Assembly: GCF_000959525.1 (NCBI RefSeq)
Contig: NZ_CP009832.1
Coordinates: 2,356,001 to 2,420,000, forward strand
From: Burkholderia multivorans ATCC BAA-247
GTDB lineage: Bacteria; Pseudomonadota; Gammaproteobacteria; Burkholderiales; Burkholderiaceae
Length of the DNA: 64,000 nt
Direction: 5' to 3'
Translations under genes and position numbers: made by a program
The notes under the pieces: model-generated
The model's input: the letters and a program-made list of their open reading frames with translations, nothing else
Databases searched by the model: none
Told to the model about the DNA's origin: nothing
Shown: positions 1 through 5,345 of the stretch, piece after piece
Numbering within the stretch: position 1 is the first letter of the stretch
Layout of the letters: each line of letters starts with the position of its first letter

Positions 1-1255
1 CAAGCTCTTCAAGCTTCGCATCCAGCTTCGTCAACCACTGCCGGCGCTCGGCGTCGTACCTGTGACGATTGTAAACGCCGCCGACTCCGGGCAGCATGTG
101 CCCGATGATCGCCTCACCGACCTCGTATGGGCAGCCGAGCGCCGCCAGCATGGTGCGCGCTGTCCGACGCAGGTCGTGAGGTGCCCAATGCGTAACGGGT
201 AGCCGCGGCCGAGACTGCTCCGGCCGCGTTTCGCTGTAGGGCATATGGAAATGAACCGCCTGCCCAAACACCTTTTGCTGCATCGGTCCGCCCCTTTCCG
301 CCGGAAATAGCCATCCCTTGCCATAACGCGCGAGCCGGCGGCGCACGATCGCTTCTGCTCGGCCGATCAATGGCACTCGCAGGTCGGTAGCGTTCGCATG
401 CCGTGCGTTCTTCGTCTTTGCCTTGGGAATCGTCCACCACAGGCCGTCTGGTTCGTCGCTAATCTCGGCGCCCTCCATCGAAGCAATCTCTGCGCCGCGC
501 GTTCCGGTCCAGAGGTAAAGAGTCAAAGCGTCCTCAACGTTGCGGCTGAAGTTCGGCAACCAGTTTATTAACGCCCCAACCTCACCCTCATTCAGAAACC
601 GCTTTACGGTCCCGACGGGCTGCCCCTGAATACGCTTGCCATTGCTCCTCAGCCTACCGCGCATAATTTGGCGCCACCAGTTCGGCGTCGACTCTGGAAT
701 CTTGCCGGCGTCTAACGCGTAGTCCCATGCCGCGCCCAGCTCGAGCCGGAGCTTCGACGCTTGCACCGGAATGTGCCGAAAGGCGTCGATTTTGGCGAAC
801 GCACGCTCGCGCGTCACCTCGGCAACCGGCAAGTCGGCGATGTCTTCGATCATGGTTCGGAACATGCGGGCGACCTCAGTCGCTCCCTTGACGCCTCGAT
901 TTACATCTATGTGGCCTTTCAGATATGCCGCACATATTTCGCGCACGGTCGGCGAATCCCCTTGCTGTACCATTACGCCGACAGAACCGTGTGCTTGCCG
1001 CTTCTTCAGCGCCGGATCGTTGCCTGCGTTGCGCTCGTCCCTCAAGCGCTCCCACTCAACGGCCGCCGCGGCGATCGACAGCGCGGGCCATTCGCCGATC
1101 TTGATTTGTCGCATACGTCCATCGACGGGCGACTTGTAACGGTAAATCCAGCTACGGCGCGACGTAGTCGCCTGCAGCCGAAGACCCGGACATCCGTCAA
1201 TATTCAGGTGTGCACCGGGCAAAAGTTGCTTTGCCGTACGGGCGTCAAACCGCAT
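1..1255 (-). CDS. P4-type tyrosine recombinase (integrase), 3' end beyond window
   Basis: I translated this frame by hand. It is open from ATG 1253-1255, directly preceded by an in-frame TGA, to the left edge (418 codons, no stop inside). The first ~100 residues resemble the arm-DNA-binding domain (DUF4102) of P4-like integrases, including GLRLQ, WIYRYKSP and IGEWPALS. The C-terminal catalytic domain carries all the expected residues: R253 in TGTRGAE, H360 and R363 in HDLRR, H386 in IIGHM, and nucleophile Y395 in GVYNRHRY. It would integrate and excise a genomic island or satellite at a specific attachment site. A GAGG Shine-Dalgarno lies just upstream. It is divergent from mutS, with about 160 bases between the start codons, so the element edge lies in or beside the mutS 5' end. 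It appears functional. Only the last residues are unseen. Confidence 0.93.
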   Translation of the reverse strand, partial: MRFDARTAKQLLPGAHLNIDGCPGLRLQATTSRRSWIYRYKSPVDGRMRQIKIGEWPALSIAAAAVEWERLRDERNAGNDPALKKRQAHGSVGVMVQQGDSPTVREICAAYLKGHIDVNRGVKGATEVARMFRTMIEDIADLPVAEVTRERAFAKIDAFRHIPVQASKLRLELGAAWDYALDAGKIPESTPNWWRQIMRGRLRSNGKRIQGQPVGTVKRFLNEGEVGALINWLPNFSRNVEDALTLYLWTGTRGAEIASMEGAEISDEPDGLWWTIPKAKTKNARHANATDLRVPLIGRAEAIVRRRLARYGKGWLFPAERGGPMQQKVFGQAVHFHMPYSETRPEQSRPRLPVTHWAPHDLRRTARTMLAALGCPYEVGEAIIGHMLPGVGGVYNRHRYDAERRQWLTKLDAKLEEL

Positions 1256-1263
1256 TCAGACCT

Positions 1264-1338
1264 CAGCGTAGGTTTCTGCCATACGCTGGGGTAGCCCGGC
1301 GTAGGCTCGTGTTGTGACAGAGGCAAAAAGCTACGCTG
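1264..1338. repeat. Clustered CAGCGTA repeats upstream of integrase (candidate arm-type sites)
   Basis: CAGCGTA occurs at 1264-1270 on the + strand and, as TACGCTG, at 1282-1288 and 1332-1338 on the - strand. A degenerate GGCGTAG lies near 1299-1305. The first copy abuts the integrase ribosome-binding site. Short repeats in both orientations beside an integrase gene are typical of arm-type sites for the integrase or of excisionase/repressor sites. This assignment is inference. Confidence 0.5.
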
Positions 1339-1357
1339 ACAACGGAAATTTCGCAAG

Positions 1358-1369
1358 ATGTCGCGACAT
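1358..1369. promoter_or_regulatory. 12-bp perfect palindrome between int and mutS
   Basis: ATGTCGCGACAT at 1358-1369 is a perfect palindrome. It is flanked by the near-repeats GGAAATTTCG (1344-1353) and GGAAATTCG (1372-1380). It lies about 45 bases upstream of the mutS start in AT-richer DNA. It could be an operator, a recombination core, or part of the promoter reading into mutS; the sequence alone does not decide. Confidence 0.4.
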
Positions 1370-1414
1370 GGGGAAATTCGATAGCGGATACCCCAAAACG
1401 GACGGAATGCCTTG

Positions 1415-4102
1415 ATGGATAAGGACGTGCAGGAAATTACGGAAGTGAAACAGCAGCTTACGGAAGCCGCAATAAGCAATCATACGCCAATGATGCAGCA
1501 GTACCTACGCATCAAGGCCGAGCATCCCGACACGCTCGTCTTCTACCGGATGGGCGATTTCTACGAGCTGTTCTTCGAGGACGCCGAGAAGGCCGCGCGC
1601 CTGCTCGACCTGACCCTCACGCAGCGCGGCGCATCGGCAGGCAATCCGATCAAGATGGCCGGCGTGCCGCACCATGCGGTCGAGCAATATCTGGCGAAGC
1701 TCGTGAAGATGGGCGAGTCGGTTGCGATCTGCGAACAGATCGGCGATCCCGCGACGTCGAAGGGCCCCGTCGAACGCAAGGTCGTGCGTGTCGTCACACC
1801 GGGCACGCTGACGGACGCGGCGCTGCTGTCCGACAAGAACGACGTATACCTGCTCGCGATGTGTACCGGGCACAACAAGCGCGGCGTGGCGGTCAACATC
1901 GGCCTCGCATGGCTGAACCTCGCGAGCGGCGCGCTGCGGCTCGCGGAAATCGAACCGGACCAGCTCGGCGCGGCGCTTGAGCGGATCCGGCCGGCCGAAA
2001 TCCTGACGGCCGACGGCGCGACCGACGCGATTCCGGCCGGCGCAGGCGCGATCAAGCGCGTGCCTACATGGCACTTCGATATTGCTTCGGGTACGCAGCG
2101 TCTGTGCGAGCAGTTGGACGTCGCGAGCCTCGATGGATTCGGTGCGCATTCGCTGACAAGCGCGTGCGGCGCGGCTGGCGCGCTGCTGCTGTATGCGGCC
2201 GCGACGCAAGGCCAGCAACTGCGTCACGTGCGCAGCCTGAAAGTCGAAAACGAAAGCGAATACATCGGCCTCGATCCCGCGACGCGCCGCAATCTCGAAC
2301 TGACCGAAACGCTGCGCGGCACCGAGTCGCCGACGCTCTATTCGCTGCTCGATACCTGCTGCACGACGATGGGCAGCCGCCTGCTGCGCCACTGGCTACA
2401 TCATCCGCCGCGCGCGTCCGTCGCCGCGCAGTCGCGCCAGCAGGCGATCGGCGCGCTGCTCGATGCGCCGGCGGACGCCAGTCTCGACGCGCTGCGCAGT
2501 GCCCTGCGCCAGATTGCCGACGTCGAACGGATCACCGGGCGTCTCGCGCTGCTCTCGGCGCGGCCGCGCGACCTGTCGAGCCTGCGCGATACGTTCGCCG
2601 CACTGCCGGCGCTGCGCGAGCGCATCAAGCCGATCGTCGCGAACGCCGATGCGCTTGCGCGCCTGGACGCGGCGCTCGCCCCGCCCGCCGAATGCCTTGA
2701 CCTGCTGACGACCGCGATCGCACCCGAGCCTGCCGCGATGGTGCGCGACGGCGGCGTGATCGCGCGCGGCTACGATGCCGAGCTCGACGAGCTGCGCGAT
2801 ATCTCCGAGAACTGCGGACAGTTCCTGATCGATCTCGAAGCACGCGAGCGCGCACGCACCGGCATTGCGAACCTGCGCGTCGAATACAACAAGGTGCACG
2901 GCTTCTATATCGAAGTCACGCGCGGCCAGACCGACAAGGTGCCCGACGACTACCGGCGCCGCCAGACGCTGAAGAATGCGGAACGCTACATCACGCCCGA
3001 ACTGAAGACGTTCGAGGACAAGGCCCTGTCCGCGCAGGAGCGCGCACTGTCGCGTGAGCGCGCACTGTACGACTCGGTGCTGCAGGCGCTGCTGCCGTTC
3101 ATTCCGGAATGTCAGCGCGTCGCCTCGGCGCTTGCGGAACTGGATCTGCTCGCCGCGTTCGCCGAGCGCGCACGCGCGCTCGACTGGGTCGCGCCGACGT
3201 TCACCGACGAAGTCGGCATCGAGATCGAACAGGGCCGGCATCCGGTCGTCGAAGCGCAGGTGGAGCAGTTCATCGCGAATGACTGCCGGTTCGGCGCCGA
3301 GCGCAAGCTGCTGCTGATCACGGGCCCGAACATGGGCGGTAAGTCGACGTTCATGCGGCAGACGGCGTTGATCGCGCTGATGGCCTACGTCGGCAGCTAC
3401 GTGCCGGCGAAGTCCGCGCGCTTCGGCCCGATCGACCGGATCTTCACGCGCATCGGCGCAGCCGACGATCTGGCAGGCGGCCGCTCGACGTTCATGGTCG
3501 AGATGACCGAGGCCGCCGCGATTCTCAACGACGCAACGCCGCAGAGCCTCGTGCTGATGGACGAGATCGGCCGCGGCACGTCGACGTTCGACGGTCTCGC
3601 ACTCGCCTGGGCGATTGCGCGCCACCTGCTCGCACACAACGGCTGCTATACGCTGTTCGCGACGCACTACTTCGAACTCACGCAACTGCCGCTCGAATTC
3701 CCGCAGGCGGCCAACGTGCATCTGTCGGCCGTCGAGCACGGGCACGGGATCGTGTTCCTGCACGCGGTCAACGAAGGGCCGGCAAATCAGAGCTACGGGC
3801 TGCAGGTCGCGCAGCTCGCCGGCGTGCCGGCGCCGGTGATCCGCGCGGCACGCAAGCATCTGGCGCACCTCGAACAGCAGTCGGCGGCACAGCAAACGCC
3901 GCAGCTCGACCTGTTCAGCGCGCAGCCGGCGCCCGGCGATCTCGAGTGTGCGGATGCGCCCGTCGTCCCCGACGCACCGCATCCGGCGCTCGAGAAGCTG
4001 CGCGAAATCGATCCGGACGATCTGAAGCCGCGCGAAGCGCTCGACCTGCTGTACGAGCTGCGCGCACTCGTGCGGGACCACGATGGCGACGCACGCGCGT
4101 GA
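1415..4102 (+). CDS. mutS: DNA mismatch repair protein MutS
   Basis: MutS is the mismatch-recognition ATPase that starts methyl-independent strand repair together with MutL. The protein is about 895 residues, near the family length. Visible parts are HTPMMQQYL and the mismatch-wedge motif GDFYELF (Phe49, Glu51), the connector and lever domains, Walker [10 protein letters not shown] (around 637-645), Walker [12 protein letters not shown], and a C-terminal segment with the clamp-type QLDLF motif. ATG 1415 is preferred. TTG 1412 and the internal ATG 1490 (MMQQYL) are alternatives. The first ~25 codons, [12 protein letters not shown] onward, do not resemble the short N-termini I know from other MutS proteins and are AT-rich, so this start is probably supplied by the adjacent integrated element. 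The ATP-binding and mismatch-binding regions are intact. Confidence 0.97.
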
Positions 4103-5345
4103 GCGCGTGATGCCCCGCCTGCCGGCGTGCGCGATGGCTGCGCTCGCCGCAGCGGCAATCGTGCTGTCGCCGGCCCGCGCGCATGGCGCGCCGGCCGCGC
4201 GCGCGGCCGCACCCTACTCGTTCGCGGTCGTATCGGGCGTCATGAGCACGCCCGCCGACGAGCCCGCCGCGCAACGCATGCTCGAATCGATCGCACGCGA
4301 ACGCAATCTCGCGTTCGTCGTCTATGCAGGCAACCTGAAGGGACCGAAAGAAGCGTGTCGCGACGCGATCTATACGCAGCGCAGTGCGATCCTCGACGCG
4401 TCGCGCGTGCCGCTCGTATTCGTCCCCGGCCACGACGACTGGGTGACCTGCGGGACACCGACGGGCGGGCATTACGATCCGGTCGAGCGACTCGACTTCC
4501 TGCGGCAGACGCTGCTCGCCGAATCTGCGCTGCCCGATCGCAACGCATTGCCGATCACGCGCGAAAGCGAAGTCGCGCGGTTCCGCCCGTATCGCGAAAA
4601 CGCGCGCTGGATGCAAGGAGACGTCGTCTACGTCGCGCTGAATGCGCCCGCGCCGAACAACCACTTTCTGACGGCCGGCGGCCGCAACGGCGAATTCGAG
4701 GATCGCGTGATCGCCAACGCGTTCTGGGTCGACCATGCGGCCGAATACGCGAAGCGACGCGATGCGCGCGCGATGGTGGTGATTTTCGAAGGCGATCCGC
4801 AGTTCGATCGCTATGAACGCGCGGAACGCTTTGCGTGGCTGCGCTTCAACCGGCCGCGCGTGCGCGACGGATTCCGCGAGCTGAAACGCACGTTGGTCAA
4901 GGCAGCGGCGACATTCCGCGGGCCGATCCTCGTCATTCATGCGAGCGCGGAACCGCTCGCGAACGGCTTTCTGATCGACCGTCCGCTGCGCGCAGACGAT
5001 GGCGAACCGGTGGGAAATGTGACGCGCGTCGCGATCGGCCCGCGTCAGCCGGCGAATCAGTGGGTCAAGGTGAGCGTGTCGCCGGCGCGGCAGACGCCGT
5101 TCGGCGTGAGCTTGCAGACGGTGCCGAAGAACGTGCCGGTGCCGCCCTCGCTGCCGCTCGTCCCGCACGACGACGTGCCGTTGCCGCAAATGCCGGAGAT
5201 CCCGGCATTGCCTGCGCTGCCGGACTCGTCGTCGGTCGCGCCGCCGCTGCAGGGCGACGGCACGGCGCCCGGCAGCGCATCATGGCCGGCGCCGCCGCAG
5301 GCGACGCCAGGCGAACCGGCGAGCTCAGTGCAGCGTGCGTCCTGA
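4083..5345 (+). CDS. Exported protein with degenerate metallophosphoesterase-like fold
   Basis: This 420-residue protein overlaps the 3' end of mutS by 20 bases. A likely N-terminal signal peptide (hydrophobic [10 protein letters not shown], then ARAHGAP) points to export; ATG 4110 would give a tighter signal peptide start. The middle has the spacing of a calcineurin-like phosphoesterase: VVYAGNLKG, then FVPGHDDW, then LNAPAPNNH. The usual metal ligands (GD, GNHD) are partly replaced, so activity is uncertain. The last ~90 residues are proline-rich ([19 protein letters not shown]), suggesting a wall-spanning or flexible tail. The function is unknown. It may be co-transcribed with mutS through the overlap. 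Confidence 0.8.

Follow-up and report, generated by a model that had tools for sequence, protein, structure and literature searches.

A contractile-tail prophage in the 5' end of mutS of Burkholderia multivorans and its setting among small units that carry copies of the mutS leader

We describe an integrated element that ends in mutS in a 64,000-nucleotide stretch of Burkholderia multivorans ATCC BAA-247 (contig NZ_CP009832.1, positions 2,356,001 to 2,420,000), referred to below as the window. From its gene content, the element is almost certainly a temperate contractile-tail prophage, and the best explanation of the data as a whole is very probably that this prophage sits in mutS among small units that have its left end, and that integrases of its kind may move. 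Both copies of the attachment (att) core are present, the native mutS start is displaced, a new start with a third-position codon bias is joined in frame, phage genes accompany it, and relatives exist without the element.

The element ends in the first codons of mutS, see Table 1. A tyrosine integrase gene directly adjoins mutS, with 160 base pairs (bp) between its start at 1255 and the mutS ATG at 1415. A search of the genome itself with positions 1-4500 of the window initially returned a short match at C3:2310939; checked base by base, the attR core has an exact copy (23/23), and on extension 31/34 positions are identical. This far core, the att repeat that the original prediction had sought to the left of the window, lies 46,538 bp upstream of the mutS core. 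It is preceded by the displaced native 5' end of mutS, i.e., the host start now stands on the far side of the element, and from there the reading frame enters element DNA. The insertion point falls within the HTPMMQQ motif, at codons 13-20 of the native reading frame, and the 23 bp of the core translate as TPMMQQY plus most of one further codon. Joining the left flank to mutS in silico puts the native start back in frame with no frameshift. The guanine plus cytosine (G+C) content is 48.3% at 1381-1500 versus 62.5% at 1501-1620, and about 66-69% in native mutS; earlier hand counts for these two intervals, which had placed a composition boundary in the first mutS codons, agree with the computed values, and the duplicated core and displaced start bear out that the element ends there. 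As read from the sequence, the element boundary is inside mutS, beyond mere adjacency. ARAGORN found no transfer RNA (tRNA) gene within the window, which rules out a tRNA att site, and the core lies in mutS, as had been proposed.

The comparison with relatives points the same way. We located mutS in all 65 genomes of the genus, and took up to 12 kilobases (kb) of upstream DNA for 60 of them plus our own, 61 in total, leaving out G148, G293, G382 and G399. A phage-type mutS start (MDKDV) is present in 10/61 genomes and absent in 51/61. Six of the ten carry a full-length upstream integrase (the present genome included), one a mosaic integrase (G073), and three (G223, G328 and G338) only integrase fragments within the 12 kb. 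The suggested comparison with island-free Burkholderia yielded relatives without the element, among them the near-empty G358, where native upstream DNA reaches to 206 bp from the mutS core. Here it stops at L009:6546, so 50.9 kb lies between native DNA and the core. This distance and the 51 genomes without the phage-type start make it hardly credible that the integrase-mutS arrangement is native to the species with no island boundary, and we reject that reading. Other mutS front ends (MENTPVS..., ...SPGVSVANH) occur in G199, G318 and G348 and in G401, and in G401 a 57% integrase lies upstream of mutS.

The new start itself appears to be translated. When the 10 phage-type starts are compared in all 45 pairings, there are 149, 122 and 330 differences at first, second and third codon positions, counted over 26 codons of which three precede the ATG, the pairs not being independent; such a third-position bias is what would be expected of translated sequence. 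Two observations weigh against a start supplied by the element: nonsynonymous exceeds synonymous divergence in 4/45 pairs (G000-G338, G367-G398, G134-G328 and G328-G398), and no sigma-70-like promoter was recognised in 1200-1520 ahead of the new start, so a consensus promoter there was rejected.

Nine of ten scanned proteins matched PHROGs, namely two tail proteins, tape measure, baseplate, portal, terminase, primase/helicase, repressor and integrase; the protein at L009:13755-15455 had no match. Part of the tail region resembles phage sheath/tube DNA (phage PS17), and packaging, tail/baseplate, replication and repressor genes occur together, as in temperate contractile-tail phages, as far as genes can tell. 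The original prediction of an integrative element with an intact integrase stands in that respect; the phage proteins make it a tailed prophage and not a generic island.

The integrase has the Arm-DNA-bind_3 and Phage_integrase domains (Pfam), and its catalytic residues R253, H360, R363, H386 and Y395 are all at the positions named earlier, so the call of an intact P4-type integrase about 160 bases from mutS was right. It would bind the three putative right-arm sites in Table 1, and is predicted to be active and to excise the prophage cleanly. In G073 the near-mutS integrase (L040) has a C-terminal part that is 88% identical and an N-terminal part that is 50% identical, which gives it a mosaic look. 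Relatives with 56-65% identity adjoin mutS in other genera of the family (L017-L020, L022, L027, L030, L036), and a 58% relative in L021 (G011:C2) adjoins a gene resembling by eye GTP cyclohydrolase II (ribA), not mutS.

Table 1. Positions of the prophage-mutS junction and associated features (window coordinates unless prefixed).
Feature	Position	Strand	Remark
P4-type tyrosine integrase	2..1255	-	418 amino acids in window, 424 in total; stop left of window
Putative right-arm integrase site GCGTAGG	1266..1272	-	GCRTAG at -218 from core in 7/10 phage-type right ends
Putative right-arm integrase site GCGTAGG	1299..1305	-	GCRTAG at -185 in 7/10 phage-type right ends
Putative right-arm integrase site GCTACGC	1330..1336	+	CTAYGC at -153 in 7/10 phage-type right ends
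Element-supplied mutS start, 23 codons, in frame	1415..1483	+	TTG at 1412 is an alternative start
attR core, 23 bp	1484..1506	+	Identical to C3:2310946-2310968
Native remainder of mutS (MutS domains I-V)	1507..4102	+	Domain scan and homologue search
PtuB and PtuA (Septu) genes	L009:11152-13304 (C3:2311152-2313304)		Between far core and second, damaged leader repeat

Almost certainly, a temperate contractile-tail phage used its own P4-type tyrosine integrase to enter mutS at codons 13-20. The crossover in the 23-bp core would have cut the gene off from its native leader and first 12 codons, now at attL 46.5 kb upstream, and placed the element's own leader and 23 codons before mutS; on excision, the native start would again be joined in frame.

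The core is also found elsewhere in the genus. A degenerate 23-bp core pattern matches in 57/65 genomes, many of which have several copies, including tandem copies and copies on other replicons. Around these extra cores lies a repeat of about 150 bp, consisting of a mutS-like leader, a start codon (opening mostly MSTQP.. or MTTLS..), the core, CTGCGCCTTATCTGACAAGG and CTACGC sites. A sequence model of the repeat matches in 64/65 genomes, with at least two matches in 53/65 and a maximum of 13. In many genomes the mutS leader is among the matches counted, and later counts use stricter filters. A profile of the repeat gave 164 repeats in 98 of 102 stretches, which were chosen for holding mutS or a repeat and include two strains of one species (L134 and L155). 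Between neighbouring repeats there are 66 intervals of 453-5370 bp (median 1129 bp, 55.7% G+C), each of which may hold more than one unit, and unit arrays occur both at mutS and on other replicons. No phage record has the repeat, and the five plasmid records that do, second and third chromosomes among them, are all Burkholderia. Named carriers of the exact junction are B. puraquae, Burkholderia sp. BCC1644, B. lata, B. ambifaria (on a scaffold labelled plasmid), B. stagnalis and B. arboris.

The left ends of these units resemble that of the prophage, whose far core has both CTACGC sites (+34 and +46). An exact 15-bp core is present at 57 non-mutS left ends; of these, 48 carry CTAYGC at exactly +34 or +46, 25 of them at both places. 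Only five such motifs occur elsewhere across the 57 x 160 bp, and mutS proper has none (0/50). The pattern of core and double site (at most two mismatches) is found in 23/47 genomes of the genus versus 1/282 other genomes of the family, and its reversed control in 0/329. A full-length leader precedes 40/57 left ends, and, when the 51 distinct full-length non-mutS leaders are taken together, 41 contain an in-frame ATG no more than 30 codons from the core with no stop between. The mutS of G268 itself begins with a cassette-type leader, so that, at the sequence level, such a leader fronts mutS in one strain. As a separate matter, a strong RNA hairpin at the left end was rejected, since the two examples folded did not outperform shuffled sequences.

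The flanks of the units suggest movement. In 25 of 32 homologous interval pairs there is no similarity on either side, up to 1.2 kb beyond the repeats, although the pairs are not independent, as 15/32 come from one six-member family. Four members of that family are 95-99% identical inside with no common flank, i.e., L132 (G252), L229 (G134), L242 (G343) and the mutS locus of G395. Where mapped, homology begins at the core and stops about 80 bp into the next left end, itself conserved. G252 and B. pyrrocinia BX1 have the same left flank and first unit and then diverge, and G252 and G283 hold differing contents at the same off-mutS place. Against movement, 7/32 pairs have a common flank; both flanks are common to one B. 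arboris strain pair (L134, L155), and the L240/L241 pair also matches on both sides. Units moving as wholes, with the boundary at the core, are probably the best account of the flank data. Empty versions of two off-mutS sites were not found; homology in most other species ends about 60-160 bp short of the core.

A different origin of the units would be decay, in which they are remains of successive full elements, phages or islands, inserted at mutS with no cassette movement. Tandem accretion at one att site is known, according to excerpts of PMC3146451, and both the three genomes that keep a phage-type start with integrase fragments only and a fragment in one of the 66 intervals (L135) would fit such a history. 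However, the near-identical unit in unrelated contexts of four genomes, with homology from the core where mapped, and the unit right ends, which are mutS-like leaders without phage right-arm sites, make decay unlikely.

We also consider it improbable that the units spread through RecA homologous recombination between leader repeats and not through an integrase. The leader of G155 is 81-88% identical to the displaced leaders of G313, G032, G093 and G273 over 119-135 bp, which such recombination could use, but this leaves unexplained why CTAYGC stands at a fixed distance in 48/57 left ends, outside the leader, and is absent from 50/50 mutS proper.

If the units do move by an integrase, it would have to come from elsewhere. 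In 65/66 intervals no integrase of the same kind was detected (E-value 1e-3, six frames, a 25-integrase profile; other integrase families were not searched). Within relatives of the P4-type integrase, the units outside L135 have no integrase gene of their own, as is the case in cis-mobilizable elements. Integrons, likewise, are arrays of one- or few-gene units with low G+C, mixed cargo and a common recombination site at each unit's end. In the Burkholderia units, by contrast, the presumed mover is a P4-type phage integrase and not IntI, and the site is a mutS leader with paired direct arm sites.

Most small units have a prophage-type left end (the core followed by CTACGC at +34 and +46), while at the right end of most a mutS-like leader and core replace the phage right arm. 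Most likely, an integrase of this kind would recombine a circular unit (leader-core-left arm) with leader-core-mutS, and each insertion would leave mutS with a new front end. Unit right ends resemble attB and are not of the attR type with element arm sites: arm motifs are not enriched upstream of their cores, and phage-arm motifs at these ends were rejected. The integrase would therefore have to act with one arm only, and we infer a reaction between a left-junction-type circle and leader-core-mutS.

Besides this missing enrichment, several observations count against the proposal. There is no full-length leader before 17/57 left ends, the motif is missing from both places in 9/57, and one or both sites are missing in 32/57. 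The last repeat seen before the prophage in G134 has only one of the two sites after it, and that in G367 has neither at the exact place. In the present genome, the core of the second repeat (L009:13607-13745) is damaged and no pair of arm sites follows this repeat, so the first repeat may be the true phage left end, with the Septu genes locked inside the prophage. Weighing these points, we regard movement of the units by this integrase family as reasonably likely, and the best reading of the sequences is that they are integron-like, trans-mobilised cassettes that would restore mutS on insertion. We lean, by a small measure, to the full picture of a Burkholderia cassette system, in which the recombination site joins a phage-type left arm to a copy of the mutS 5' end (leader, start codon and first codons). 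P4-type integrases at mutS would gather small units, in part with anti-phage-like genes, stack them and spread them over several replicons, and mutS would stay functional through each unit's new front end. Upstream of the displaced mutS start, L009:9349-9767 matches one unit of the L133 array at 84%, behind a weak leader fragment (E-value 0.007), and is probably an older unit.

The prophage alone is a further, well-documented case of phage takeover of the front end of a mismatch-repair gene. According to the available excerpts of Chu et al. 2017 (PMC5296598), elements of 4 to more than 150 kb, one of them of 7 kb with few genes, occur in mutS of hundreds of beta- and gammaproteobacteria; excision was tested experimentally there, and that of the B. 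multivorans CF2 prophage was detected, with no frameshift. Our element is like theirs in the integrase beside mutS, the HTPMMQQ insertion, the in-frame start apparently supplied by the element and the displaced host start. Between them, the excerpts of that paper and of Tuanyok et al. 2008 (PMC2612704) show mutS of Burkholderia, Vibrio, Escherichia and Pseudomonas as a seat of prophages and other elements, with starts that the elements supply. The earlier remark that use of mutS would be unusual for a Gram-negative island did not survive these reports. Tuanyok et al. place insertions at mutS in B. pseudomallei MSHR305 (GI8c) and B. thailandensis E264 (Bt-GI4), a putative prophage with a 15-bp repeat, ACGCCGATGATGCAG, of which 14/15 bases are as in the core here; the excerpted text mentions neither a supplied start nor cassettes. 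Chu et al. screened integrases adjoining mutS, so integrase-less units would escape, and the arrays and mutS-leader repeats on other replicons seen here are unmentioned in the excerpts of their paper.

Two other systems are similar, as far as excerpts of the sources go. The Dehalococcoides ssrA islands (McMurdie et al. 2011, PMC3146451) likewise stand in tandem between repeats of one essential gene, and 15 of them have no integration module of their own, so that their movement may depend on neighbours. There, however, insertion is at the 3' end of an RNA gene, with repeats no more than 100 kb away, whereas the Burkholderia repeat copies a protein-gene 5' end from leader to codons, the element arm is missing from the right ends, and some arrays are at a great distance from mutS. 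SpyCI at mutL of Streptococcus pyogenes (PMC3430984, PMC4689407) also sits at the 5' end of a mismatch-repair gene, but in a Gram-positive host, and transcription is blocked until excision. Thus, a phage in mutS with a new start is already known, and its setting among small mutS-leader cassettes was not found described: the PMC literature, outside whose coverage most subscription journals lie, gave only mutS elements. If the cassette reading is true, integrons would not be the only route in Burkholderia by which a single recombinase stacks up small gene units, and the system itself would explain why a key repair gene tolerates insertion.

The cassette reading would also tie defence genes to such units, Septu in the present case, and it predicts the moving integrase and its short sites. 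The Septu pair at the left end of the prophage was identified by PADLOC (PtuB-like, E-value 2.5e-106; PtuA-like, 5.7e-163). Elsewhere the cargo includes an AriA/AriB-like pair, a RES-domain protein and an MrcB_N/HNH protein in G398, ATPase-Toprim-like proteins in G273 and G288, a TrlF-like ATPase (per annotation) in B. pyrrocinia and a Schlafen-AlbA_2 protein in G395, as well as 2'-5' RNA ligase-like, transglutaminase-like, glyoxalase-like and tetrapyrrole methylase-like proteins and unknowns. PADLOC matched 8 of 18 chosen proteins and not the other 10 (limits 0.001 and 1e-6); the set includes proteins outside the 66 intervals, e.g., L009:6761-9082 and L133:525-1331, AAA ATPases give weak matches to many of its models, and since the proteins were picked non-randomly we claim no defence-gene fraction. 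Finally, a small protein (MKSLLIL..., open reading frames of 109-155 amino acids; no Pfam match for the one member scanned) recurs at L132:5296-5850 and relatives, in six units from different genomes.

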